DNA from: a virus
IMG/VR virus record: IMGVR_UViG_3300032323_000345
Coordinates: 1 to 23,647 of that record
Length of the DNA: 23,647 nucleotides
Direction: 5' to 3' (one strand)
In this document: piece by piece, positions 5,217-23,268 of the stretch
Position numbering within the stretch: the stretch's first letter is position 1
How the letters are laid out: every line of letters starts with the position of its first letter
Notes under the pieces: model-generated
What the model saw: the letters and a program-made list of their open reading frames with translations, nothing else
Databases searched by the model: none
Told to the model about the DNA's origin: nothing
Made by a program: the position numbers and the translations under genes

Positions 5217-5822
5217 ATGATCGACTTCGGCGACTTCAAAGGCATGGCCGCTACGCTTCAGATCGAAGAGGTGATCGGCCTTGCTCAAGAGAACGACATC
5301 GAACCCGCTGCTTTGCGTGCTGTGATCGCGGTAGAAGCCGCCGGATCCGGCTTCGACAAGCAGGGCCGTCCGAAGATCCTGTTCGAGCCGCACATCTTCC
5401 ATCGCCTTTTGTCGGGTGATGAGCGCCAAACGGCCATCGATGCGGGCATTGCCTATCCCAAGTGGGGTATGCAGCCCTATCCGAAAGGCTCGGACGCCCA
5501 GTACGCTCGCTTGGAGGCGGCGTCAGAAATCAATCAGTCGGTCGCACTGAAGTCGGCCTCGTGGGGCATGGGGCAGATCATGGGATCGAACCACAACCTC
5601 GCGGGCTATGGCGACGTGGAGACGTTCGTCTTCGCGTGCATGGACAGCGAGGCGAAGCACGTTGCCATGATGATCAGCTTCATCAAGAACGCGAAGCTGC
5701 TCGGTGCCATCCAGAATCTTGACTGGGCGGCGTTCGCTCGGGGCTACAACGGCCCTGCCTATGCCAAGAACCAGTATGATGTTAAACTTGCGGCGGCGTA
5801 TGAAAGGTTCTCCGCAGAATGA
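5217..5822 (+). CDS. Endolysin, N-acetylmuramidase (DUF3380 type)
   Basis: I chose the ATG at 5217 because an ACGGGAA ribosome binding site lies seven bases upstream; the ATG at 5211 would sit almost on that site. The 201-residue protein matches the N-acetylmuramidase family: AVIAVEAAGSGF with probable catalytic E40, then GRPKILFEPHIFHRL, SASWGMGQIMGSNHNLAGY and a terminal FARGYNGPAYAKNQYDVKLA. These enzymes cut the beta-1,4 bond between N-acetylmuramic acid and N-acetylglucosamine. There is no signal peptide or SAR-like anchor, so release should depend on the upstream holin. No separate wall-binding domain is visible, as is usual for phages of Gram-negative hosts. The stop overlaps the next gene start (ATGA). 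Confidence 0.9.
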   Translation: MIDFGDFKGMAATLQIEEVIGLAQENDIEPAALRAVIAVEAAGSGFDKQGRPKILFEPHIFHRLLSGDERQTAIDAGIAYPKWGMQPYPKGSDAQYARLEAASEINQSVALKSASWGMGQIMGSNHNLAGYGDVETFVFACMDSEAKHVAMMISFIKNAKLLGAIQNLDWAAFARGYNGPAYAKNQYDVKLAAAYERFSAE

Positions 5823-6532
5823 CAACGGGTCTCAACTACACGCAGTACGTGACGCAGATCGCCACGATGGCTGTCGTGGAGGAGACTAATCCTGCGTTTC
5901 TGACGATCCTGCCGCAGATGATCACCTACGCCGAGAACCGGCTGTATCGTGATCTGGACTTTCTGTTCACATCCGTGAGCAACACGTCCTACGCTTGCAC
6001 GGTGGGTACACGCGCCATCAATGTGCCGACCGGGACGTTCGTGGTGCCTGAGCAGATCAACCTGATCACCCCTGCCGGGACGGCGAGCCCTGACAACGGC
6101 ACCCGTGTTCCGCTCCTTCCGACCACGAAGGAGTTCCTCGACGCGGTGTACGGGGACAGCCAGAGCAAGGCGCTGCCGAAGTATTTCGCGGTGTTCGACG
6201 ATTTTCAGTTTCTGCTCGGGCCGTATCCTGATGCGGTCTATCAGGCGGAAATCGTCGGCACGATCCGCCCGAGCAGCCTGAGCGTGAGCAACCCGACCAC
6301 GTTCATCAGCCTGTATCTGCCTGACCTTCTGATCATGGCGAGCATGATCTACATCAGCGCCTATCAGCGCAATTTCGGTCGCGCCAATGACGATCCGCAA
6401 ATGGCCGTGACGTATGAGAGTCAGTATCAGGCGCTTCTGAAGGGCGCGATGATCGAGGAGAACCGGAAGAAATTCGAGGCTGCGGCGTGGTCTTCGCAGT
6501 CGCCTTCTCCCGTCGCTACCCCGACGAGGTAA
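5819..6532 (+). CDS. Head-tail adaptor protein, SU10-adaptor-like
   Basis: A 237-residue protein whose ATG overlaps the endolysin TGA. The N-terminus LNYTQYVTQIATMAVVEE, followed by MITYAENRLYRDLDF, is a pattern I associate with short-tailed phage adaptor proteins of the SU10 type, which bind beneath the portal and connect it to the tail nozzle. Mid-protein segments such as NVPTGTFVVPEQINLITPA and DDFQFLLGPYPD suggest beta structure; the C-terminal third is helical (DPQMAVTYESQYQALLKGA). It sits directly before a much larger nozzle-like gene, the usual order for these phages. Assigned by motif and position without a search. Confidence 0.78.
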   Translation: MTTGLNYTQYVTQIATMAVVEETNPAFLTILPQMITYAENRLYRDLDFLFTSVSNTSYACTVGTRAINVPTGTFVVPEQINLITPAGTASPDNGTRVPLLPTTKEFLDAVYGDSQSKALPKYFAVFDDFQFLLGPYPDAVYQAEIVGTIRPSSLSVSNPTTFISLYLPDLLIMASMIYISAYQRNFGRANDDPQMAVTYESQYQALLKGAMIEENRKKFEAAAWSSQSPSPVATPTR

Positions 6533-6535
6533 GCG

Positions 6536-9061
6536 ATGCCTTACGCTTCGTTCAAAATCCTCCCCGGCGTGGATCAGAACAAGACCCCCGCCCTCAATGA
6601 GGCTGCGGTCTCCGAAAGCCAACTGATCCGGTTCATTCCTGACAGGACGCTCGGCGGTCTGGTGCAGAAGCTTGGCGGTTGGCAGAAGTACCTCAGTAGC
6701 TCCGTCGCCTCCGTAATCCGCGCTCTTTGGGCGTGGGAGGACACTAACGGCAACAGCTATCTGGGCATTGGTGCCGAGGGCATCGCGCCCATCACTGTCA
6801 CGAATGCCACGGGCAACGGAACCACCGTCACGCTGACGCACACCGGGAACTTTGTTTTCCAGACGGATTTTGCGATCACCGTGACGGGCATCAACCCGGT
6901 TGGATACAACGGAACCTATACGGTGACGGCGGCTACCCCGACGACGGTGCAGTTTGCGAGCACTGAAACGGGGCTATACAATTCAGGCGGGGAAATCATT
7001 GGCGGCGGGCGGTCCCTTGAGGTGGCGTTGTCCGGGGGCTCGACGTTCGACATCACCCCGCAGACCAGAACCGTCAACACTACCGTAAGCTTCTCGACCA
7101 CAGCCGGACTCAATGAAGTCACCGTCACCGACACGGGGCGAAACGCGGACGCCTATGATACTGTTGATATCCGAACTCAGGTCAGCGTCGGCGGCTTGGT
7201 GCTGTTCGGGCTTTATCCCATCACGCCGCTAGGCCCGAACACCTATAGGATTTTCGCGTTTGACCTGACAGGTCAGCCGCAGTTAGCCAAATCGCCATCC
7301 ATTACCAACGGCGGAGCAGTCCCGAAGTTCTTCGCAACCACGGGCAGCGATTCTGTTATCGTTTATCTGGAAGATCACAATCTGCTGCCGGGGGACACGT
7401 TCCCGGTTCTGGTGGCTACTTCCGTTGGCGGCATTACTCTTTTTGGCAACTACATCGTTCGTGGCTTAAACCCGGATGATACGGAAGACCCGGCAGACGC
7501 TTTCAGAATTTCCGTGAGCACTACTGCCGGAGCCATTCCGGTGACAAATGCGTCGGGAACAGGCACCGTCGTAACCATCACGCATCAGAACTCGCCCTCG
7601 GAAATTACGTTCACCAACGGCGAAGATGTCGTAATCGCGGGCGTGGACCCGGCGGGCTACAACGGCACCAAAACAATCACGACATCTACGGACGGCTCGT
7701 TCACATATGCAGCCGCGACCACAGCGACGTATGTCAGTGGCGGCACGGTCAGTGGCGAGTTCAGCTTTTTTGAGAACAACGGTCAAGTTCAGTTCGTCTA
7801 CTATAACGGCATCGGTCCGCAGCCGGAGGGGTCGGGATACGGTATCGGGCCGTATGGTGCCGGTGGCTATGGCACAGGAAACCCGCCTCCTGCGGCCAAT
7901 ACCGGCGTGCCGATCAATGCGGTGGATTGGACCCTTGACAACTGGGGCGAGACGCTTGTGGCGTGCCCTCTTGGCGGGCCGATCTATGCTTGGAATCCCA
8001 CGCTCGGCGATCCTGTGGCCCAGATCATTCCTGAATGCCCTGTGGTCAACGAGGGCATGTTCGTCGCCATGCCGCAGCGCCAGATCGTGGCATGGGGTTC
8101 CACGTTCACGGGGATCATCGATCCGCTTCTCATCCGGTGGTCGGATGTGAACAATTACAATTCGTGGATCGGCCTGATCAACAATCAGGCGGGGTCATAC
8201 CGCATCCCCAAGGGCTCCCGCATCATTCAGTGCATCCAAGGCCCGCAGCAGGGGCTGATCTGGACGGACCTCGCCGTCTGGGCGATGCAGTATGCAGGGC
8301 CGCCCTACGTCTATCAGTTCAACGAGATAGGCACGGGCTGCGGTCTCATCGGCCGCAAGGCTGCGGCTTCCGTGAACGGCGTCGTCTACTGGATGGGCTC
8401 AAGCCAGTTTTTCCGGTTGGCGGGCAACGGCGTCGAGCCGATCCGCTGCCCTGTCTGGGACGTGGTCTTCCAAGACCTCGACTTGAACAACCTCGACAAA
8501 ATCCGCGTGGCTCCGAACAGCCGTTTCGGTGAAATTTCGTGGTTCTACCCGACGCAGTCGAACGGCGGCGAGGTCAGTCACTACGTCAAATACAACTTCA
8601 ACCTCGACCAGTGGGACTTCGGCACTCTGGGACGCACGGCATGGATCAATGAGTCCGTGCTCGGCCCTCCGATCGGCGCGGCCCCTGACACGTTCATCTA
8701 TCAGCACGAAACGTCGCCCGACGCTGATGGTCAGCCGATGCTGTCGTCTTTCCAGACGGGTTACTTCGCGATGACCGAAGGCAACGTAAAGCTGTTCGTC
8801 GATCAGGTCTGGCCCGACATGAAGTGGGGCTATTACGGCGGCACGCAGGGCGCGAACGTCAAGATGACGTTCTTTGTGACCGACTTTCCGGGTCAGACGC
8901 CGATCCAATATGGTCCGTTCACGATGACACAGGCTTCAACCTTCTTTACGCCGCGCTTCCGTGGCCGCTTGGTATCCATCAAGATCGAGAGTGATGACAT
9001 CGGCTCGTTCTGGCGTCTCGGGAATATCCGATACCGTCTGCAAGAGGATGGGAGGTTCTGA
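6536..9061 (+). CDS. Tail nozzle-like protein with a duplicated inserted domain
   Basis: An 841-residue protein with a GAGGT ribosome binding site five bases before the ATG. The N-terminal PYASFKILPGVDQNKTPALN and the C-terminal half (DNWGETLVACPLGGPIYAW, WSDVNNYNSW, DLAVWAMQYAGPP, WMGSSQFFRLAGNG) show repeated beta-blade-like sequence, as in nozzle or tail-stabilising proteins of short-tailed phages (P22 gp10, T7 gp12 class). Two related inserts interrupt it: residues about 83-158 (VTNATGNGTTVTLTHTG, then NPVGYNGTYTV) and about 332-410 (VTNASGTGTVVTITHQ, then DPAGYNGTKTI). They look like duplicated beta-sandwich domains that may decorate the tail. The stop overlaps the next gene start (TGATG). 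Role inferred from order after the adaptor and from blade-like repeats. Confidence 0.75.
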   Translation: MPYASFKILPGVDQNKTPALNEAAVSESQLIRFIPDRTLGGLVQKLGGWQKYLSSSVASVIRALWAWEDTNGNSYLGIGAEGIAPITVTNATGNGTTVTLTHTGNFVFQTDFAITVTGINPVGYNGTYTVTAATPTTVQFASTETGLYNSGGEIIGGGRSLEVALSGGSTFDITPQTRTVNTTVSFSTTAGLNEVTVTDTGRNADAYDTVDIRTQVSVGGLVLFGLYPITPLGPNTYRIFAFDLTGQPQLAKSPSITNGGAVPKFFATTGSDSVIVYLEDHNLLPGDTFPVLVATSVGGITLFGNYIVRGLNPDDTEDPADAFRISVSTTAGAIPVTNASGTGTVVTITHQNSPSEITFTNGEDVVIAGVDPAGYNGTKTITTSTDGSFTYAAATTATYVSGGTVSGEFSFFENNGQVQFVYYNGIGPQPEGSGYGIGPYGAGGYGTGNPPPAANTGVPINAVDWTLDNWGETLVACPLGGPIYAWNPTLGDPVAQIIPECPVVNEGMFVAMPQRQIVAWGSTFTGIIDPLLIRWSDVNNYNSWIGLINNQAGSYRIPKGSRIIQCIQGPQQGLIWTDLAVWAMQYAGPPYVYQFNEIGTGCGLIGRKAAASVNGVVYWMGSSQFFRLAGNGVEPIRCPVWDVVFQDLDLNNLDKIRVAPNSRFGEISWFYPTQSNGGEVSHYVKYNFNLDQWDFGTLGRTAWINESVLGPPIGAAPDTFIYQHETSPDADGQPMLSSFQTGYFAMTEGNVKLFVDQVWPDMKWGYYGGTQGANVKMTFFVTDFPGQTPIQYGPFTMTQASTFFTPRFRGRLVSIKIESDDIGSFWRLGNIRYRLQEDGRF

Positions 9062-11575: not shown

Positions 11576-14500
11576 ATGGGCAACAAAGGCAGCACGACAA
11601 CTCAGACGGTAAAAATCCCGCCCGAGGTCATGGCGCGGTACAATGCCGTCAACAAGCGTGCAGAAGCACTCGCCTCGCGTCCTTTTCAGCCTTACACGGG
11701 CCAGTTCGTTGCCGGCCTGACGGGTCAGCAGCAGGCAGGTATGGCGGGCATCAATGCCGCCACCGGCATGGCGCAGCCGTATTATGAGACGGCGGCTGCG
11801 ATGACTCAGGCGGGTGCCGGTCCTGTGGGCCGTCTCACGCGCGAGCAGATCAGAGAGTACGAAAACCCGTATACCGAGTCCGTCGTGGATCCGACCCGGC
11901 GTGCTCTGGAGCAGCAGCAGGGGCAGGAGCGGGCTATGCTCGCGGCTCAGGCGATCCGCTCCGGAGCGTTCGGCGGCGATCGTGCGGGCTTGGAGCGCGC
12001 CAACCTTGCTCGTCAGCAGTCTCTGGGGATGGCTCAGGCGATCTCGCCGCTGTATCAGCAGGGCTATCAGCAAGCCGTGCAAACTGCCATGGGGCAGCAG
12101 GGCATCCGTGCTGCGGACCTTCAGCGTCAGTTGGCGGCGGGACAGCAGTATGCGGGTCTCGGCACGGCTGCGCAGCAGGCGGCGTTGCAGGCCGCTCAAG
12201 CGCAGATCGGCGCGGGTACTCTTGAGCAGCAGACGCAGCAGGCGGATCTCACGGCCAAGTATCAGCAGTTTTTGCAGGAGCGCGGGTACGACTTCCAAGT
12301 CGCGCAGTTCCTCGCGAACATCGCGATGGGCACGGGCGCGCTGTCTGGCTCGACCACGACCACGACGCAGCCGTCTTCGTTCTTCTCCGACGAGCGGATG
12401 AAAGAGAACATTCAGCCGATCGGCGAGACGTTCGACGGGCAGAAAATCTACAAGTACAACTACAAGGGCGAACCCGGCACGCAGATCGGTCTGATCGCGC
12501 AGGAAGTCGAACGGAAGCACCCTGAAGCCGTAGGCATGGCCGGCGGCATGAAGACGGTCGATTATGACCGGGCCACCGAGCATGCGGGCGGTCTCGGCAA
12601 GGCAATGTCCTCGATGGGCGGAGCCGTGCATGAACCCGGCGCTTATTCTCGCGGCGGTTATGCTCCGGGCGGTCTTGTCGATCCTAACGACCTTCAGGCC
12701 ATTCTTGCCTCGCAGCGCGAATCCTTCGGCCCCTACATGCAGGGCGGTCCTTATGGGCAGTCTGCGCAGCAAGCCCCGTTCTCAGGCGCAGGCGGCATCG
12801 TGCCTGCCGCCCGTTTGCCTACGCCCAAGCTTGTCACGGCAGGCCCGGTTCCGCGTCAACAGGAATCCGGCATGCAGGAGGCTATGCGGACGTTTGATGC
12901 TGCCTCTGATGCAGGGTCGAAGATCGGCAAAACCTATGATTTCTTCGCCGGCACAGACCCGAAAAAGGACAGCGCGGGCAACCCGATTCAAGGCACCGGC
13001 ACTCCGAGCCTGAAGGAGCGGGTCGAGAAGGCTCGCGAAGGCATGCGCAGGTTCCTTCCGGGCAGTGCTCACGGCGGCGGCGTGCGCCCGCATTACGCTG
13101 CGGGCGGTGGGAGCATCAATCCCTATGACCCGAACAAAAATCCGATGGATTACTTTCCGGAGGAAGTGCTTGAGGACAACGAGCAGAAGAATGAAATGCT
13201 CAAGCCCGGTCAGGCTCCGGGGCAGGGCCAAAGCGGCTTGGGGCAGCTTGCGAACGCTGTCGGGACTGCGAGCACGATCGCAACCGGCATCGGCAAGGTT
13301 GCTCCTTACCTGATGGCCCTCATTCCGTCCGATGAGCGCCTCAAGCACGACATTGAACCTGTCGGCAAGACCTACGACGGGCAGAACATCTATCGCTATC
13401 ACATGGGCGATGGCGCGATGCGCATGGGCCTGATGGCTCAGGAAGTCGCTGAACGGAACCCTGACGCGGTTGCTCGTGGTCCGGGCGGCTACCTGATGCT
13501 CGACTATGACAAGGCCACCGGCGATGCGGTGCCGCATGAAGGCGGCGTTCGTCCTCGCGAAGGCTTGCGGGAAGGCGGTACGCCTGATCGTTCCGGCATC
13601 ATCGACATCATCCGTCGCGAAGCTGAAGCGCAGGGTGTGCCGTTTGACGTTGCGTACAATATCGCTCGCCGTGAAAGCGGCCTGAACCCGGCTGCTCGGG
13701 CCGAGACATCTACCGCCGGTGGTTTGTATCAAATCATCGACCCGACCTTTAAGGCTCTCGGCGTCGAAGGCGATAAGATGGATCCGAACGTCAATGCGCG
13801 TGCGGGCATCAAATATATCGGGCAGAACATCGCTGCGCTGCGTGAAGCAGGGCAAGAGACTTCACCCGGCAACGTGTATCTCGCTCACTTCCTCGGCACG
13901 GAAGGCGCTCGTCGCGTTCTTTCCAACCCTGATGCGCCGCTCGCGGAAACCATCCCGAACTTTGAGAGGGTGGTTGCTGCAAACCCGTTTGTGGGCAAGA
14001 TGGCGACTGGACGCGATATCGCGAACTGGGCCGACACTCGCATGGGATCCGACGCCTATCGCCCGGCACCGCAGGCCAAGGCTGAAGGTGTCAAGCCGTC
14101 GAGCAGCTTCTTCGGCACGCCGCCCACGTCGTTCCAGACGGGTAAACCGTTTGAATCTTATGGCGACTTCTTCAAGAGCAAGCAGTTCGTTGTGCCTTTC
14201 CTGACAGGGATCGGCGCGATGGCTCAATCGCCGTCACGCTACCTCGGCGCTGCTGTTCTTCAGGGGCTTGGAGCAGGCGCGCAAAGCTACGCCAATCTTG
14301 AACAGCAGCAGGCGGGTATCGCGAAGACCAAGGCAGAAACTGAACTGACCGGGACTCAAGAACAGCAAATTCTTGCTGACATTCCGCGCACGGCCATGAT
14401 CGTTGATGAGCTTGGGCGCACAGTCGGCGTGCGTGTCTACGTCAATGGCCGCATGACCACGGTCACTCCGAAGCAGTACTTCGATGCTCTCCGCAGTGGG

Positions 14501-15511
14501 CGTCCGTATGATCTCGCGCCTGTCGGTGGCTCTGCGACCGCCGGAGGTCTTGGTGCGGGTGCGACGGGCACGGGCGGACCTTCTGCGCCGGGTGGAGTTG
14601 GTCCTGCGGCGACTGCGCCTGCGGAGCCTGCCCGTAGCGAACCGGCCGCTGCTCCCGGCGGCGTGACTCCTCCCGTATATCGGGTTCTGCCTGAAGACAT
14701 TCGACAGTTGGCGGAAACGCGCGGTATTCAAGTGCAGGAAACCGGCGTCAAAAACCTCGAAAAATCGCCTGAAGCCAACCCGTTTGATGCTCAGTCTGAA
14801 GCTGCGCGCTTGTCGTCGCAGAATCTTGGACAGCGCAACATGCTTGCCAAAAACCTTGCGGAGATCGGTCGCAAGGGTAAGCCCGGCCCGATCGAGCCCG
14901 GCAAATTCTCCGCTGAAGTCGGAACGCCGGTGGCGTCTTGGCTTAAGGGCTTCCTCCGCAACGCGGGCGTAGATGCCGAAGGGCTCAACAGCTTGCAGGA
15001 TCTCGGCAAGACCGAAGTCGTGGAGAAAATCCGGCGGCAGCTTTCTCTCGGCCTTGCATCCGGCGCGGGACAGCGCGCGGCGCAAGTGTTCGAAGAGTTG
15101 ATGGCGGCTGTGCCGGGGCAGGTCAACGATCCTGAAGCTGCAGCGCAGTTGGTGTCGGACATCTACTTCATCTCGCAGCGCGAGGTGGATCTCGACCGTT
15201 TCTATCGTCAGGTCCGCAGCGAAGCCGAACGGCGTACCGGCATCAACCAAAGCGAATCCCGCTTCATCGGACAGGGTCTGTATGACGCCTATATGTCCCG
15301 CATGCAGGGGCAATATGCGACCGAGAAAGAGGCCATCCGCAGGATGTATCTCGACAAGATCGAGGTCAAAGATCCTGCCACGGGCAAGCAGATACAGACC
15401 TACGTCCTTCCGTATCTGCTCTCAAATCCGCAGGGCATTCCGAGGAACATTCAGGCAGAAATCGCTAAAAGATATGGTCCTGACATCCTCCGGTATTTCA
15501 ACGGGCAGTAA
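11576..15511 (+). CDS. Large internal virion protein: two S74-like motifs plus lytic transglycosylase domain
   Basis: A 1311-residue protein starting three bases after the acetyltransferase stop. Residues about 60-250 are glutamine/alanine-rich helices. At 271 lies SDERMKENIQPIGETFDGQ, then GLIAQEVERKHPEAV: the core of the S74 intramolecular chaperone domain. At 585 it recurs as SDERLKHDIEPVGKTYDGQ with GLMAQEVAERNPDAV. From about 674 to 830 is an SLT-type transglycosylase domain: NIARRESGLNPAAR with probable catalytic E700, then AGGLYQIIDPTF and AYLAHFLG-like NVYLAHFLGTEGA. Residues about 871-905 are hydrophobic; 981-1035 are a Pro/Gly/Ala linker; the rest is helical. This fits an ejected protein that locally opens peptidoglycan for DNA entry. 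The S74-like units are internal, whereas the classical domain is C-terminal. Confidence 0.82.
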   Translation: MGNKGSTTTQTVKIPPEVMARYNAVNKRAEALASRPFQPYTGQFVAGLTGQQQAGMAGINAATGMAQPYYETAAAMTQAGAGPVGRLTREQIREYENPYTESVVDPTRRALEQQQGQERAMLAAQAIRSGAFGGDRAGLERANLARQQSLGMAQAISPLYQQGYQQAVQTAMGQQGIRAADLQRQLAAGQQYAGLGTAAQQAALQAAQAQIGAGTLEQQTQQADLTAKYQQFLQERGYDFQVAQFLANIAMGTGALSGSTTTTTQPSSFFSDERMKENIQPIGETFDGQKIYKYNYKGEPGTQIGLIAQEVERKHPEAVGMAGGMKTVDYDRATEHAGGLGKAMSSMGGAVHEPGAYSRGGYAPGGLVDPNDLQAILASQRESFGPYMQGGPYGQSAQQAPFSGAGGIVPAARLPTPKLVTAGPVPRQQESGMQEAMRTFDAASDAGSKIGKTYDFFAGTDPKKDSAGNPIQGTGTPSLKERVEKAREGMRRFLPGSAHGGGVRPHYAAGGGSINPYDPNKNPMDYFPEEVLEDNEQKNEMLKPGQAPGQGQSGLGQLANAVGTASTIATGIGKVAPYLMALIPSDERLKHDIEPVGKTYDGQNIYRYHMGDGAMRMGLMAQEVAERNPDAVARGPGGYLMLDYDKATGDAVPHEGGVRPREGLREGGTPDRSGIIDIIRREAEAQGVPFDVAYNIARRESGLNPAARAETSTAGGLYQIIDPTFKALGVEGDKMDPNVNARAGIKYIGQNIAALREAGQETSPGNVYLAHFLGTEGARRVLSNPDAPLAETIPNFERVVAANPFVGKMATGRDIANWADTRMGSDAYRPAPQAKAEGVKPSSSFFGTPPTSFQTGKPFESYGDFFKSKQFVVPFLTGIGAMAQSPSRYLGAAVLQGLGAGAQSYANLEQQQAGIAKTKAETELTGTQEQQILADIPRTAMIVDELGRTVGVRVYVNGRMTTVTPKQYFDALRSGRPYDLAPVGGSATAGGLGAGATGTGGPSAPGGVGPAATAPAEPARSEPAAAPGGVTPPVYRVLPEDIRQLAETRGIQVQETGVKNLEKSPEANPFDAQSEAARLSSQNLGQRNMLAKNLAEIGRKGKPGPIEPGKFSAEVGTPVASWLKGFLRNAGVDAEGLNSLQDLGKTEVVEKIRRQLSLGLASGAGQRAAQVFEELMAAVPGQVNDPEAAAQLVSDIYFISQREVDLDRFYRQVRSEAERRTGINQSESRFIGQGLYDAYMSRMQGQYATEKEAIRRMYLDKIEVKDPATGKQIQTYVLPYLLSNPQGIPRNIQAEIAKRYGPDILRYFNGQ

Positions 15512-17301: not shown

Positions 17302-18126
17302 ATGTCGTTCACGACCAACAAAGTCCTCGAAAAGCCCGCCAACGGGTCATACGTTGATCAGTGGGATGTCCCGCTGAACGGTGACATGGACATCATCGAT
17401 CAGGCGTTCGGCGGCGTCACGAACCTGAATGCCACGTCCGGCAGCGCCACTCTGGTTGATACCCAGTTTCGGTCTTTGACGCTGAACATCCAGAACGCAA
17501 TAGCCGCTCCCGTGACATACACGATCCCGAATGGCGTGGGCGGTCAGTGGATTGTCCGAAACACCACGACGGATTCCAGTGGCGGGCCTCACGCCGTCAC
17601 CATCCGCAACGGCGGCGGTGATGCGGGCATCGCTATTCCGCGCGGCATCCCGACGATCATCTATTCGGACGGTACGAACGTCAGGTCCACGTCTACGCCT
17701 GTTCCCGGCAGTGACACGGAGGTGATCTTCAACGACAACGGCTCTTTCGGTGCCTCGTCGGACTTCACGTGGGACGGCTCCGTTCTGACCGCGACCGACG
17801 TGGCAGATGACATCGGCAACGTCCGAGACGTGCCCATCAATTCGCAGACGGGGACGTACATCCTCGTGGCGACGGACGCCGGGAAGTTCATTTCCATCAC
17901 CACGGGCGGCGTGGCGGTTCCGGCCTCCATCTTCACGGTCGGGCAGACGGTCACGATCTACAACAACTCGGTCAATTCCCAGACGATCACGCAGGGCACG
18001 TCCGTCACGCTGCGACAGGTGGGCACGACGAACACGGGCAACCGCACGCTCGCCGCCTACGGACTTTGCACGCTGCTCTGCGTGGCTTCCAACACGTTCG
18101 TCATCACCGGCGGCGGGGTCTCCTAA
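17302..18126 (+). CDS. Tail fibre protein
   Basis: A 274-residue protein with an AAGGAG ribosome binding site. The start SFTTNKVLEKPANGSYVDQW followed by DIIDQAFGG is a recurrent fibre N-terminus that probably attaches to the tail. A module at about 134-165 (GSDTEVIFNDNGSFGASSDF then WDGSVLTAT) resembles one in the collagen-like fibre ([12 protein letters not shown]). The C-terminal domain, from about 175, contains ILVATDAGKFISITTGGVAV, FTVGQTVTIYNNS and SQTITQGTSVTLRQVG, a beta-rich module common at fibre ends. It overlaps the next gene by one base (TAATG), suggesting that both are assembled together. Confidence 0.82.
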   Translation: MSFTTNKVLEKPANGSYVDQWDVPLNGDMDIIDQAFGGVTNLNATSGSATLVDTQFRSLTLNIQNAIAAPVTYTIPNGVGGQWIVRNTTTDSSGGPHAVTIRNGGGDAGIAIPRGIPTIIYSDGTNVRSTSTPVPGSDTEVIFNDNGSFGASSDFTWDGSVLTATDVADDIGNVRDVPINSQTGTYILVATDAGKFISITTGGVAVPASIFTVGQTVTIYNNSVNSQTITQGTSVTLRQVGTTNTGNRTLAAYGLCTLLCVASNTFVITGGGVS

Positions 18127-19007: not shown

Positions 19008-19036
19008 GGCGCGATCAAGTGCCGATGCTGCGCCTC
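18991..19036. terminator. Inverted repeats between convergent genes, possible bidirectional terminator
   Basis: GCAGCATC at 18991-18998 pairs perfectly with GATGCTGC at 19024-19031, and the centre of this repeat (19011) is the centre of the 7-bp gap between the two convergent stop codons. An alternative GC-rich stem pairs GAGGCGC at 19006-19012 with GCGCCTC at 19030-19036. Neither is followed by a T-run on either strand, so this is not a classical intrinsic terminator; a pause or Rho-assisted end is possible. Confidence 0.4.
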
Positions 19037-19554
19037 GTCAGGTTGAACGGCCTGTCGTCGCGGCGTGCATGCCTCAACAGCGGGACGTAGCAAAGCGCGG
19101 CGTGCTCTGCACAATATGATCCCCGTTCCTTCGGGTCTCCGCAGAACAGGAAGTTTTCAGGACGGTCCCCGCTGACGATGTATCGGCACGATGTCCTGCG
19201 GAGATCCATGAACTTCAGCTTCCCGACCTTCGTCGGCACCTTCGGCTCGGGCGGCTTGATCACGAAGAGCGGAAGAAGGGGCTGTTCCGGTTCCTGCTGA
19301 GGAAGCGCGGCTTCCGCCTTCGCTTTGGCTCTTTTCTTGAGGGCCGAAACCTTCTTCAGCTTCGCAATTTGCTCTATTCTTTCGGTTGCAACGAGATGAC
19401 CACCGGGGCGGCGCTCAAGCGCCACCCCTTTGTCACGAAGCCGTTTGAGAGCACCACAGACAGAGTTCTTGGTCACGCCCAGTTCCTCCGCGATCTCTCT
19501 GGTCGTCTTGTTCAATTTCCAGAGAGCGATCATTCGACGTTGATCAATCGTCAC
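19015..19554 (-). CDS. GcrA-family transcriptional regulator homologue
   Basis: A 179-residue protein; the GTG start overlaps the upstream TGA (GTGA). Residues 1-40 carry a helix-turn-helix (RRMIALWKLNKTTREIAEEL then GVTKNSVCGALKRL) in the place of the GcrA DNA-binding helix. The linker (about 41-115) is basic with alternating lysine/alanine and proline. The C-terminal part has KLKFMDLRRTSCRY, then NFLFCGDP and GSYCAEHAALCYVP, matching the GcrA C-terminal pattern of CRWP, FCG and YCxEH (cysteines near 123, 138 and 148). In Caulobacter, GcrA binds the housekeeping sigma factor and acts at promoters with CcrM-methylated GANTC sites. The phage copy may recruit host RNA polymerase or mimic the host regulator. 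It is the last gene of the leftward operon, so it would be made after the recombination proteins. Confidence 0.83.
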   Translation of the reverse strand: MTIDQRRMIALWKLNKTTREIAEELGVTKNSVCGALKRLRDKGVALERRPGGHLVATERIEQIAKLKKVSALKKRAKAKAEAALPQQEPEQPLLPLFVIKPPEPKVPTKVGKLKFMDLRRTSCRYIVSGDRPENFLFCGDPKERGSYCAEHAALCYVPLLRHARRDDRPFNLTRRSIGT

Positions 19555-19979
19555 GGTTTCGGCATTCCGTCTGTGACCTTTGCAAGCTCGACCAGAGCAT
19601 CTTCCGGCTTCCGCTTGGCGCGGATGTAGGGCTCGATCGACTCCTCCTTGCTCTCAGGAGCAAGCCGCTCGACCATGGCGCGGATGTCGTCGTTCAGCGC
19701 CGTCGAGACGCTGATGCCCTGATCCGCGAACTGCGCCGCGAAAGCCATATAGTTGATGCTGTCGATATAGTTGTCCTTGTGCGTCCGCGCTTCCTGCAAG
19801 CGGCCAAGCTTGAGGCAGACTTGGATCATCGCGATATCGTAAGGCGAGATGTCTTTGTTCAGGACGATCGTCGCCAGTTTCGAGATCCGATCAAAACATG
19901 CCTCTTCGGGGCCGTACTGGAGGCCGCGTTCCTTGAGGATCATAACGGCGCTCGTCAGGACTTCCGTGTGCTTCGTCAT
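19551..19979 (-). CDS. DUF6378-like phage protein
   Basis: I chose the ATG at 19979 (MTKHTEVLTSAV) because AGGG lies nine bases upstream; a nearer ATG at 19985 would be too close to that site. The 142-residue product has EVLTSAVMILKERGLQYGPE with CFDRISKLATIVLN, then SPYDIAMIQVCLKLGRLQ and HKDNYIDSINYMAFAAQ. This is the DUF6378 pattern (YGPxxxxFxRI, DxAxMxxxLKxARL, DSxIDxxNYxA), common in phage early regions, of unknown biochemical role. The last 60 residues are charged and variable. It overlaps the upstream gene by 89 bases, unusually long for this operon, and joins the GcrA homologue by GTGA. Confidence 0.75.
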   Translation of the reverse strand: MTKHTEVLTSAVMILKERGLQYGPEEACFDRISKLATIVLNKDISPYDIAMIQVCLKLGRLQEARTHKDNYIDSINYMAFAAQFADQGISVSTALNDDIRAMVERLAPESKEESIEPYIRAKRKPEDALVELAKVTDGMPKP

Positions 19980-20235
19980 TTCCATTTTCCCTTTCAAACT
20001 CTACGAACTCTTGGACTTTGCCGATGTGGGCCGTGTTGATGACGATGTCGCCCCGGTCCACCCAGACAACGTCGCCGTGATGCACCCGCCGATACCACTG
20101 GCGAGCAACGATGAACTCATCCTCGTTCAGGAGGTCGCACAACTCCCCGCACGACGCGGCGAAGTGGTCGATCGTGACCTGATGCACGAGGTATCCCTGC
20201 GCTGACGGCATGTTCATCGTGATCAGGAATTTCAT
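19891..20235 (-). CDS. Small early protein, unknown function
   Basis: The start at 20235 (MKFLITMNMPSAQG) has a strong GGAGAGAG ribosome binding site and an ATGA overlap with the HNH gene stop. The 114-residue protein has an alpha/beta looking first half (HQVTIDHFAASCGELCDLL then DEFIVARQWYRR) and a GDIVINTAHIGKVQEFVEF segment near 60-80. The last 30 residues are proline/arginine-rich and overlap the next gene by 89 bases, so part of that tail may not be under the same constraint. I recognise the MKFLxTMNMPSA opening from small phage proteins but know no function. Confidence 0.65.
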   Translation of the reverse strand: MKFLITMNMPSAQGYLVHQVTIDHFAASCGELCDLLNEDEFIVARQWYRRVHHGDVVWVDRGDIVINTAHIGKVQEFVEFERENGNDEAHGSPDERRYDPQGTRPPVRPRRGMF

Positions 20236-20579
20236 TTCTCTCTCCTCACTACCGTTCCGTCCATCTTCCGCTTCCACAGGGAGTTCCTGCTGCCCGGAAG
20301 AGGGTTCTTCGATTTCTTAGCACCGATGTGGCGCTGATGTATTCGCTTCACTTTGGCGATCAGCGGGGCATCGACCTTCGCCGTATGGTGACGGTGACAC
20401 TTTCGGTGCGCCACCAACCAATTCGTTTCATCGTCCTTGCCTCCTGCCTCAAGCGGGATTTCGTGACTGACATCCCACTCTTCGCCGGGGTGAACCTTCA
20501 GGCTGCACAAGTGACAGACGCCGCTGTGCCGCAGGAAGATATCAGCCCGCATCTTCGATGAGATCCGGACGCGGGTCAT
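20232..20579 (-). CDS. HNH endonuclease
   Basis: The ATG at 20579 overlaps the preceding TGA (ATGA) and is chosen over an ATG-less upstream extension. The 115-residue protein has a zinc-type CHLC at 22-25, then WDVSHEIPLEAGGKDDETNW with H39 and N53, and HRKCHRHH at 58-65 containing H62, the order expected for the H-N-H beta-beta-alpha metal fold. The C-terminal third is very basic and ends in a GSRNSLWKRKMDGTVVRR block that looks family specific. HNH enzymes cut DNA with a metal ion. It sits inside a recombination operon and could serve replication, recombination or packaging. A homing function seems less likely because it is translationally coupled on both sides. Confidence 0.85.
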   Translation of the reverse strand: MTRVRISSKMRADIFLRHSGVCHLCSLKVHPGEEWDVSHEIPLEAGGKDDETNWLVAHRKCHRHHTAKVDAPLIAKVKRIHQRHIGAKKSKNPLPGSRNSLWKRKMDGTVVRREK

Positions 20580-20851
20580 TGCCGCGTCTCGTTCCAATTG
20601 CAAAGCTTCTGCTCGTCCCACTGCTCAAGGGTCATCGTGATACACGCCATCATCCAGATGGTAGCGCCCATCGCGGTGTCTTTGTCAGGAGCGACCTGCG
20701 ACAGGAACTCAGCGATCGCGAACGTGACCACATTCATCGCCTCCCTCGGGTGGTCGAACTGGTGAAGCTCAAGAACCAAGTCGTCCTTGCGCTGCTCCTG
20801 CTCGGCAGTCAGGGGCCGTATATTCTGTTCCAGAAGATCATCATCATTCAC
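20576..20851 (-). CDS. Small helical protein, unknown function
   Basis: A 91-residue protein starting with GTG at 20851, coupled by GTGA to the upstream gene. The sequence is acidic at the start (MNDDDLLEQ), then helical: EQEQRKDDLVLELHQF, NVVTFAIAEFLSQVAPD and GATIWMMACITMTLEQWDEQ, a methionine-rich amphipathic end. It is not hydrophobic enough in one stretch to call a membrane segment with confidence. No motif or family is recognised. Evidence that it is real comes from tight overlaps on both sides and consistent codon use with its neighbours. Confidence 0.6.
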   Translation of the reverse strand: MNDDDLLEQNIRPLTAEQEQRKDDLVLELHQFDHPREAMNVVTFAIAEFLSQVAPDKDTAMGATIWMMACITMTLEQWDEQKLCNWNETRQ

Positions 20852-21165
20852 AGCTTCATCTCTGCTCTTTTGGTGGCCTCATAGCTCTGCCACTCGTGGT
20901 ATTTCATCCGAATGTATTCCAACTGCACCTTGAGGAGCGAGGCCCGCTTCCGCGCCTCGACCATTTCGGTCACATAGTCCTTCCAAGCGTCAGAGGCTTT
21001 GACGGTCATCTCAGCCTTCGACACCGGCATGTCGCCCTGATCCGACATCATGCGCGAAAGAACCGCCGATTTGGTCTCTTCAAGCATGTTGGCGGCGCTG
21101 TCCGCATCGACCCACTTCTTGGCGATGATGCGGAACTGCTCGCTGATGGGCAGGTTGGCATCCAT
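20848..21165 (-). CDS. Small charged helical early protein
   Basis: A 105-residue protein whose ATG shares a base with the upstream TGA (TGATG). It is helical and charged throughout: AANMLEETKSAVLSRMM, then KAEMTVKASDAWKDYVTEMV, EARKRASLLKVQLEYIRMKY and a terminal EWQSYEATKRAEMKL. The end pattern (VKAS, EARxxA, LEYIRM, EWQSxEATKRAEM) is familiar from unnamed phage proteins next to annealing and SSB-type genes. A role in recombination or replication is guessed only from that company. No catalytic residues are visible. Confidence 0.7.
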   Translation of the reverse strand: MDANLPISEQFRIIAKKWVDADSAANMLEETKSAVLSRMMSDQGDMPVSKAEMTVKASDAWKDYVTEMVEARKRASLLKVQLEYIRMKYHEWQSYEATKRAEMKL

Positions 21166-21416
21166 CAGAACGGGATCTCGGAGTCATCAACGACCTGCTG
21201 CTTCGGTGCCGGGCGCTGATCCTGCATCCGCTCCTGCTTCTCGCGGAAGCCGATCGAGATATAGGTGTTGCCGTTCTTATCCTTCTTTTTCCAAACGTTG
21301 ACCCACACATCGCGCCCGAAAATCTTTGCTTCCCCGGTTAGGTCCGCGTGCCGATCCTCTGTCTTGCGGCGGTTCTGGAACGCCGACCCCGTCATATCCT
21401 TGGTCTCATAGGCCAT
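21165..21416 (-). CDS. Small protein with an SSB-like acidic C-terminal tail
   Basis: Start at the ATG at 21416 (MAYETKDMTGSAFQNRRK), overlapping the upstream TGA and preceded by GGAGA eight bases away. The 83-residue product has a short beta-type core (GEAKIFGRDVWVNVWKKK then GNTYISIGFREK) and a flexible end with VVDDSEIPF. The last residues resemble the acidic, phenylalanine-ended tip (DDDIPF type) by which single-stranded DNA-binding protein recruits partner enzymes. The core is shorter than a normal SSB OB-fold and belongs to a common but unnamed phage type. Encoded between an exonuclease and small recombination-linked genes, it may bind DNA or host proteins that recognise the SSB tail. 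Function not proven. Confidence 0.7.
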   Translation of the reverse strand: MAYETKDMTGSAFQNRRKTEDRHADLTGEAKIFGRDVWVNVWKKKDKNGNTYISIGFREKQERMQDQRPAPKQQVVDDSEIPF

Positions 21417-22033
21417 CACTTTTCTCCGTATTTCTCTTTAAGTTCGTTGATCTTGTAGTCCAGTTCAGCGAGGAACTTCTGCACCTCGCCCTCGATGATT
21501 TTGATCATAGCCGGGTCAGCCGGATAGCAAACGACATGCAGTTGCATATGTTCCGGCAGGCGCGGGTCATAGCTGACAAAGTCGCAGAACGGCCGTCCTG
21601 TACAGGCCATCTGCCACTGCATCTGAAGCCGGTATTTCTCCGGGATATCAGCCCCTAAAAGCGTCTCAAGATGTGTTGCCGTGTTCGGGCACTTGATCTC
21701 AATCAGGGCGGCATCACCCACAAGGCCGTCAGGGGATGCCCCCGACATCGCGATCGTCGGGTGGGGAACGAAGCCGGTTTCTGTCACCAACATGCCTGAG
21801 TACGCCTCATAGGCCGCACGAGCGTTCGGCTCCTGCTCCGTTCCCCACGCCATTGCGGCGTTCTGGAAGAAATCCCCCGTCCTTCCAGTCAGACGCTCGC
21901 AAACCAGTTCCGCCATATAGTTGGCCCGAGATGCGCTGTACCCGGTCTTGGTCTTCGCCATGACATCCGCGATGCGGGATGCCGTGACCTTGCCGAGCCG
22001 GGCGGCGAACCATTCTTCGGTACGTTGCTCCAT
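21416..22033 (-). CDS. YqaJ / lambda-type alkaline exonuclease
   Basis: The ATG at 22033 overlaps the upstream TGA (TGATG). The 205-residue protein shows the full motif set of the YqaJ viral recombinase family: RTEEWFAARLGKVTASRI at 4-21, WGTEQEPNARAAYE at 63-76, SGASPDGLVGD with D102, LIEIKCP with E112 and K114, and EKYRLQMQWQMACTG near 133. D102, E112 and K114 are the PD-(D/E)xK metal-binding and catalytic residues. These enzymes digest one strand of double-stranded DNA ends and hand the exposed strand to an annealing partner, here the ERF protein encoded two genes upstream. Size is normal for the family, with no sign of damage. Confidence 0.92.
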   Translation of the reverse strand: MEQRTEEWFAARLGKVTASRIADVMAKTKTGYSASRANYMAELVCERLTGRTGDFFQNAAMAWGTEQEPNARAAYEAYSGMLVTETGFVPHPTIAMSGASPDGLVGDAALIEIKCPNTATHLETLLGADIPEKYRLQMQWQMACTGRPFCDFVSYDPRLPEHMQLHVVCYPADPAMIKIIEGEVQKFLAELDYKINELKEKYGEK

Positions 22034-22344
22034 CACGCGACGACCTTCGGCTTGCTCTTCGATCCCTTCGGGCGACCGACAGGGCGTTTGATCGGCGTGC
22101 CATCAGCCTTCGGAGGGCGAGACTTCAATTCGCGCTGCGCGGCCCACAGTTCGGCATCTCTGCTGCGGAGGCGAGCGGTCAACGAGTCGGCGTGCTTTTT
22201 CAACGCATCGTGCGCCGAGTGAACCGTTTCCAACTGATTGCGCAGCTTGCTAATCCACGAATCGCGCATCTCGATTTCGGAGTTTAGAAGACCGACATGG
22301 CTCAGGAGCGTGACGGTCAATTTTTCATGGGTATCGGGGCTCAT
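22033..22344 (-). CDS. Coiled-coil protein with C-terminal AT-hook
   Basis: A 103-residue protein, ATG at 22344 overlapping the ERF stop (TGATG). Residues about 15-75 form an alpha-helical, heptad-like region (SWISKLRNQLETVHSAHDAL, KKHADSLTARLRSRDAEL). The end is basic with RPVGRPKGSKSK, which matches the AT-hook core (GRP flanked by basic residues) that binds the minor groove of AT-rich DNA. Placed between the annealing protein and the exonuclease genes, it may dimerise and bind DNA to assist recombination or act as a regulator. No named family is recognised. Confidence 0.7.
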   Translation of the reverse strand: MSPDTHEKLTVTLLSHVGLLNSEIEMRDSWISKLRNQLETVHSAHDALKKHADSLTARLRSRDAELWAAQRELKSRPPKADGTPIKRPVGRPKGSKSKPKVVA

Positions 22345-22940
22345 CACAGATCATCCTTCTTCTGATCGGCCTCAGCAGCCGAAGCTTTCAACATGCGAAG
22401 CTCATCGCTTCCGAAGATCGACCGCTCGGCGGTCGAGAGTGCCTTCCATGCCTCCGTAAGGGCTGCGTTGCCCTTGGCGGCTGCGTTGCCGATGCGTTGC
22501 CGAATGACACCCTCGTTCTTGGCGGCATCAGAAACGCTCGGCGGCGGCTGTTTCGTTACGGCGGCGTTGCCGTCGTCATCGTCGGACGCGATCGAGAGCA
22601 TCGCCATCAGGCCGTAGCGGCGACCGTAGGTGATTGCGCTGCCGATGCCGTGAGCATCCCATTTTGCAACCGGGAGGCGCAGCGTCTCAGCGACGTACTC
22701 ACCTGACTTGTGCATGATCATCGTCTCCACCTCGACATGGCTGTCGGCGGTGCGCGGGAACTGCATGACGGTCAGATCGTTGACGGCGAGAGGCTCGCGG
22801 ACGGCAGCACGAACGGCTGCGAGGTCAGCGTACTTCGACTTGAACATAGGGTTCAGGCCCGTCTTCGTGGCATCGTCGATCATGCCTTGGGCCTTGGACA
22901 GAGCGGTCGCCAATTCGGCGATGGTTTCAGACATCCTCAT
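22344..22940 (-). CDS. erf: ERF-family single-strand annealing protein
   Basis: I chose the ATG at 22940 (MRMSETIAELATALSK) with GGAG six bases upstream; an in-frame extension to 23012 would run through the promoter. The 198-residue product shows ERF signature segments: ELATALSKAQGMIDDATK, NPMFKSKYADLAAV near 31, and GIGSAITYGRRYGLMAMLSI then DDDDGNAA near 115-138. ERF proteins coat single-stranded DNA and anneal complementary strands, replacing RecA-dependent exchange. It is the first gene of the leftward operon and pairs functionally with the exonuclease. The last 60 residues (charged, SERSIFGSDELRMLKAS) are variable in the family. Confidence 0.9.
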   Translation of the reverse strand: MRMSETIAELATALSKAQGMIDDATKTGLNPMFKSKYADLAAVRAAVREPLAVNDLTVMQFPRTADSHVEVETMIMHKSGEYVAETLRLPVAKWDAHGIGSAITYGRRYGLMAMLSIASDDDDGNAAVTKQPPPSVSDAAKNEGVIRQRIGNAAAKGNAALTEAWKALSTAERSIFGSDELRMLKASAAEADQKKDDL

Positions 22941-22968: not shown

Positions 22969-22997
22969 TTGGTAGCCGCCGTTTCGCGCCTCGTCAA
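22969..22997 (-). promoter_or_regulatory. Leftward early promoter (pL-like)
   Basis: On the minus strand TTGACG (22997-22992) is followed after 17 bases by TACCAA (22974-22969), a good -35 with a weak -10. Transcription would begin near 22962 and leave a leader of about 20 bases with the GGAG site of the ERF gene. It is the only candidate found upstream of the ten-gene operon. The -35 lies in the operator repeat. Confidence 0.5.
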
Positions 22998-23010
22998 GCC
23001 CCTCCTTGAC
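22993..23010. promoter_or_regulatory. Operator-like inverted repeat between divergent promoters
   Basis: GTCAAG and CTTGAC are exact inverted copies separated by six bases. Each half contains most of a -35 hexamer, one for each divergent promoter. A dimeric HTH repressor bound here would block both; the adjacent Cro/YdaS-like product is the obvious candidate. Confidence 0.55.
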
Positions 23011-23040: not shown

Positions 23041-23268
23041 ATGAAGAAAGATTCGATCCTCAATGAAGTCTTCGCCGCAACCGGGACCGCAGCCGCTTTG
23101 GGCGTTTTTCTGGGCGTCTCGCGATCGGCGGTTTCCCAATGGCGAAAAGTGCCGCTACGCTATCTGAAACAGGTGTCGGATCTTACCGGCATCCCGAGGC
23201 GCAGATTGAGGCCGGATCTGTACGATGACGAGGAAACCGACGCCTTTCGACGCACGACGCCTCTTTAG
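23041..23268 (+). CDS. Cro / YdaS-like repressor
   Basis: A 75-residue protein, ATG at 23041. Residues about 14-36 contain a helix-turn-helix: GTAAALGVFLGVSRSAVSQW, then KVPLRYLKQVSDLTGIPR and RRLRPDLYDDEE. The LGVSxxAVSQW followed by LRPDLY near the C-terminus is typical of the YdaS/Cro-like phage regulators. It should bind as a dimer to DNA. It lies just to the right of the symmetric operator, beneath the rightward promoter, so autoregulation and control of the leftward recombination operon are likely. Residues after 62 overlap the next gene by 44 bases. A partner CI-type repressor is not in the window. Confidence 0.82.
   Translation: MKKDSILNEVFAATGTAAALGVFLGVSRSAVSQWRKVPLRYLKQVSDLTGIPRRRLRPDLYDDEETDAFRRTTPL

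Follow-up and report, generated by a model that had tools for sequence, protein, structure and literature searches.

The last gene of the early operon in the phage sequence analysed here encodes a genuine homologue of GcrA, the regulator with which Alphaproteobacteria aid RNA polymerase in starting at cell-cycle genes and links transcription with DNA methylation in these hosts. It appears to represent a previously undescribed subfamily from a branch of aquatic phages, in which the gene occupies the same or nearly the same position in 30 relatives and in which, according to the aligned residues, both the part that reads DNA and the part that binds polymerase are altered. With moderate confidence we read the protein as a GcrA-type sigma-70 cofactor of the phage that would have changed its DNA specificity, would act independently of methylation and would serve as a regulator of middle or late genes.

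Gene position, family assignment and domain layout

The window spans the viral record from end to end, a 23.6-kb fragment (23,647 nucleotides) that does not include the late promoter. The gcrA-like gene (19015-19554, minus strand) encodes 179 amino acids from a GTG start, which shares a GTGA overlap with the upstream gene's stop codon; no in-frame start precedes it. As had been predicted, it closes the early operon: it is the tenth and last gene of a leftward series (19015-22940, minus strand) in which the end of each open reading frame overlaps the start of the next from 22940 to 19015, and it is followed after a gap of 7 nt by a convergent gene. Among the ten genes are those for an Erf-like annealing protein, an exonuclease, SSB, an HNH protein and a DUF6378 protein, the last of which lies upstream of gcrA (19551-19997, minus strand; Pfam PF19905, E 4.5e-16), its stop overlapping the gcrA start. 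Divergent from the operon is a Cro/YdaS-like repressor gene (23041-23268, plus strand; PHROG transcriptional repressor, E 2.9e-8; YdaS/P22_Cro), and an unstranded palindrome upstream of the operon, GTCAAG-N6-CTTGAC (22993-23010), is a candidate repressor operator. A scan of the early region for sigma-70 promoters found nothing. Elsewhere in the window the virion genes indicate a P22-like stabilization protein, a transglycosylase/ejection protein and an endolysin. A single frame of 1311 amino acids (11576-15511) carries two S74-like SDER(M/L)K chaperone/autoprocessing motifs and a transglycosylase domain and resembles DNA-ejection proteins; at 1-700, GPTGPTG collagen-like repeats lie in a tail fibre gene that is truncated by the contig end.

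The suggested homology to GcrA was borne out along the length of the protein. Residues 10-162 match positions 14-152 of the Pfam GcrA profile (PF07750) with 57.6 bits (E 2.6e-15), which passes the curated whole-protein cut-off of 26.9 bits. The nearest solved sequence found by phmmer in the PDB is C. crescentus GcrA (7ye1, E 2e-9), and the CRY, FCG and YCAEH motifs are all present. Against NF050816, the NCBIfam equivalog model of host GcrA, the score was 50.5 bits, far under the cut-off of 280, and the window protein is therefore homologous to host GcrA, not equivalent to it. The Pfam GcrA model also exceeds its cut-off in the control genome of Sulfolobus acidocaldarius.

The protein has a two-domain architecture. 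An N-terminal helix-turn-helix (HTH; about residues 1-43; 19426-19554, minus strand) comprises helices 5-13, 18-25 and 29-41 and is modelled by AlphaFold with a pLDDT of 92-97 over residues 1-40. It is joined by a basic, proline-containing linker (about residues 44-110; 19225-19425, minus strand), partly a long helix (54-82) of lower model confidence, to a sigma-interacting domain (SID; about residues 111-179; 19018-19224, minus strand). The latter contains C123, C138, C148 and H151, a set that is invariant throughout an alignment of 21 phage proteins. The AlphaFold model made from 21 sequences, which superseded an earlier one from 11 sequences with a poor SID, has a mean pLDDT of 78 and predicts a three-helix HTH, a long low-confidence helix and a SID-like end. 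Its best Foldseek match in the PDB was 5yix_B (GcrA SID:sigma2; TM(target) 0.81, rmsd 1.9), with 7ye2_G second; the shortness of the domain keeps the E-values weak (0.08-0.11). The modelled C-terminal part thus adopts a SID-like fold, and the originally proposed role with the housekeeping sigma factor appears likely from sequence, model and best PDB match together. A winged HTH was also considered, as KGVALERRPGGHLVAT is wing-like and winged-HTH families scored, but was rejected: wing strands are found in neither AlphaFold model.

A clade of phage relatives

Scans with the tail protein and exonuclease of the window gathered 160 related loci, about 35 of which contained GcrA-like frames in profile searches. 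Of the 50 loci with at least 3.5 kb of sequence downstream of the exonuclease gene, 23 had gcrA on the strand of that gene, 1.8-3.9 kb downstream of it, and in the relatives gcrA sits at or near the operon end. The Pfam GcrA cut-off was exceeded in 19 of the 20 related phage records tested. In a tree of 84 proteins, the window protein and 30 relatives form one clade (support 99/81) with no host GcrA inside it, and a dN/dS of about 0.12-0.28 between closely related phage pairs indicates purifying selection. Two PHROG families listed as having unknown function, 12262 and 16311, matched at full length (E 9e-13 and 1e-10, respectively), by which we identify them as putative GcrA-type families. These families are broader, and the window clade makes up one part of them. 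A GcrA homologue was also seen on a contig assigned to a beta-proteobacterium MAG (L026, 2863-3381), which is probably a phage contig or a case of misbinning.

The two halves of the window protein differ in their likeness to GcrA. Alone, the C-terminal half scored 39.5 bits against the Pfam model; the N-terminal half reached 17.8 bits, under the 26.9 cut-off, and scored higher (28.2 bits) against HTH_23. For comparison, eight other copies from phages or MAGs were cut down to their first 64 residues, and each still gave 31-52 bits to GcrA. When HMMs of 31 chromosomal GcrAs were used, the DNA-binding domain (DBD) of the window scored 27.9 bits, the third lowest among 25 phage/MAG copies, versus 78-102 for hosts, and its SID 36.1 bits versus 70-93, although the host values are somewhat inflated because the same 31 sequences trained the HMMs. 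A scan with the DBD half alone recovered no relatives. In a further alignment-based search one domain filled the list, and the matches listed were generic HTHs. Two further phage GcrA-like proteins (L030 7704-8309 and L031 3-476) have kept the SID and have DBD scores below that of the window.

Many positions that are invariant in the 31 chromosomal GcrAs have been lost. The window protein retains 5 of 11 in the DBD, the other 6 being changed or unaligned, and 7 of 12 in the SID. Losses in the DBD include Trp3-Thr4, which is gone, Lys39 (replaced by Ala) and His41 (by Lys); those in the SID include Trp15 (by Tyr) and Pro16 (by Ile). The N-terminal Trp-Thr is missing from 29 of 30 aligned phage relatives, L198 being the exception, the recognition-helix Lys and His that never vary in hosts are variable among the relatives, and the sigma-binding C-[K/R]-W-P of hosts has become C-R-[Y/F] in nearly all clade members. 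Over 31 aligned sequences the clade signature consists of a start without WT (bar L198), [T/S]-[R/K]-N-[A/S]-[V/I]-x-G-x-x-x-R, SCR[Y/F].., FLFCG.., YC..H and.CY. The recognition-helix core K/R-N-[AS]-V-x-G is retained in the clade, so that the reading of GANTC may survive; loss of the host-invariant Trp-Pro from the SID makes sigma binding itself uncertain. The linker, which had been thought longer than that of host GcrA, turned out to lie within the host range: 85 residues separate the recognition-helix Arg from the first SID Cys, as against 35-108 (median 75) in the 31 chromosomal GcrAs, and its net charge of +8 compares with -1 to +16.

These features bear on two alternatives. The protein could have lost the sigma contact and be simply a repressor that binds DNA or a replication factor, as the absence of the host-invariant Trp-Pro, the basic linker and an HTH whose best scores are to generic HTH families would suggest. 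We consider this very unlikely, because the Cys3His core and the SID-like fold are retained clade-wide. An inhibitor, whose SID would occupy sigma2, displace host GcrA and turn host cell-cycle transcription off, would suit the early expression and a SID kept while the DNA-binding domain diverged. However, purifying selection has preserved the HTH as such, whereas a pure decoy would need none, and this reading too seems improbable.

GANTC sites and methylation

The original proposal had the protein work at GANTC promoters in their methylated form, with a linked CcrM-type methylase gene as something to look for. The window contains 33 GANTC sites compared with about 122 expected (observed/expected 0.27), and none of them is truly intergenic, since the two sites flagged as such fall within the frames 17302-18126 and 23041-23268. 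Fourteen alphaproteobacterial chromosome stretches gave a median observed/expected ratio of 0.28 (range 0.09-0.43) and a 2.38-fold intergenic enrichment. Phage-specific restriction avoidance was rejected as an account of the depletion in the window, since the host stretches are equally depleted. When the window was pooled with eight gcrA+ phage records, the intergenic GANTC density was 1.44x, much of it due to clusters in two records. Intergenic clusters were seen in the relatives G403 and G408. In two gcrA+ phages they lie at 5391-5512 and 6558-6607 (L264) and at 1383-1402 and 6235-6564 (L273), and they may be acquired segments or else promoters that respond to GcrA or CcrM. In a further relative (G401), 43 kb hold 4 GANTC sites versus 141 expected (observed/expected 0.03), all of them genic. 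The same genome (L257-L259, 43,318 bp) has no GTAC sites, and such extreme avoidance of both motifs may reflect host restriction or methylation. Relatives with gcrA had a lower GANTC ratio than those without it (0.44 vs 0.60, p 2.4e-5), a difference that is weak, since the loci are related to one another, and that probably reflects the hosts. Overall, these phages look adapted to hosts of the CcrM type, but their own promoters do not look GANTC-built.

No CcrM-type methylase (PF01555) was found in the window or in any of 19 gcrA+ relatives, records that may be fragments and for which the CcrM of the host would suffice; nor did the window or these 19 relatives contain an N6/N4 methylase. A search for a promoter motif of the window protein found none. 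As the window has no GANTC between genes, G401 has 4 sites that are all genic and no linked methylase was found, a GANTC-promoter mechanism is poorly supported, and with both DBD and SID altered the protein probably does not work at the methylated GANTC sites of the host.

A host-like mode, in which the protein would act at m6A-GANTC promoters and raise host replication genes or drive the host into S phase, has already been proposed for phiCbK gp222. It would agree with the full-length homology to GcrA, the retained K/R-N-[AS]-V-x-G core and a GANTC depletion like that of CcrM-bearing hosts. The clade-wide changes at host-invariant DBD and SID residues and the score below the NCBIfam equivalog cut-off argue against it, and we regard this mode as unlikely.

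Proposed function and comparison with known systems

In the reading that we prefer, a GcrA-type sigma-70 cofactor with changed specificity, the C-terminal Cys3His domain would bind the housekeeping sigma factor of the host at its domain 2, and the diverged N-terminal HTH would place the holoenzyme at promoters unlike the methylated GANTC promoters of the host. The targets would most likely be middle or late promoters of the phage, or else an altered set of host promoters. Made last from the early operon, the protein would act as the switch from early to later expression. More tentatively, and with some doubt, we suggest that a widespread lineage of aquatic phages uses a GcrA-derived sigma-70 cofactor free of m6A-GANTC, which would read a new phage-specific promoter element and, as the early-to-late switch, take the role of a Q-type antiterminator or a phage sigma factor. 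If true, the system would show whether a GcrA-type cofactor can dispense with methylation and which of its residues determine specificity. The assignment to GcrA also lends a probable function to PHROG 12262 and 16311, from abundant uncultured aquatic phages.

Phage GcrA as such is already known, and what appears new is the subfamily. The first phage known to encode a GcrA homologue was phiCbK (2012), and it is to its gp222 that the host-like proposal above refers (PMC3556154); others are gp5 on the genome of Atu_ph08 (PMC6630229) and homologues in brucellaphage Y17 (PMC11836647) and in phiLM21-like prophages (PMC12429752). As in these cases, the homologue described here is carried by a phage genome. 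GcrA homologues are also found in two records named as Synechococcus phages (PP438432 and OM868079); as GcrA is an alphaproteobacterial protein, the host assignment of these may be wrong. A tblastn search of 50,697 phage records with the window protein gave zero matches at 1e-3, while a canonical phage GcrA copy matched 30 phage records; L222, the closest member of the clade, has matches to phiCbK-like copies alone, at about 30% identity.

With C. crescentus GcrA (PF07750; 7ye1, 7ye2, 5yix), which provides its best sequence and fold matches in the PDB, the window protein shares the arrangement of HTH, linker and Cys3His SID and a similar length. It differs in lacking the N-terminal Trp-Thr, in having GA..KRL for GK..HRL and in having CRYI for CKWP. 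With the phage-encoded RNA polymerase/sigma regulators gp39, AsiA and P7 (reviewed in PMC7403470) it would have in common that a phage product is expected to target the sigma factor of the host. Those proteins, however, are repressors that target sigma4, whereas GcrA-type proteins are activators that target sigma2 (PMC7403470).
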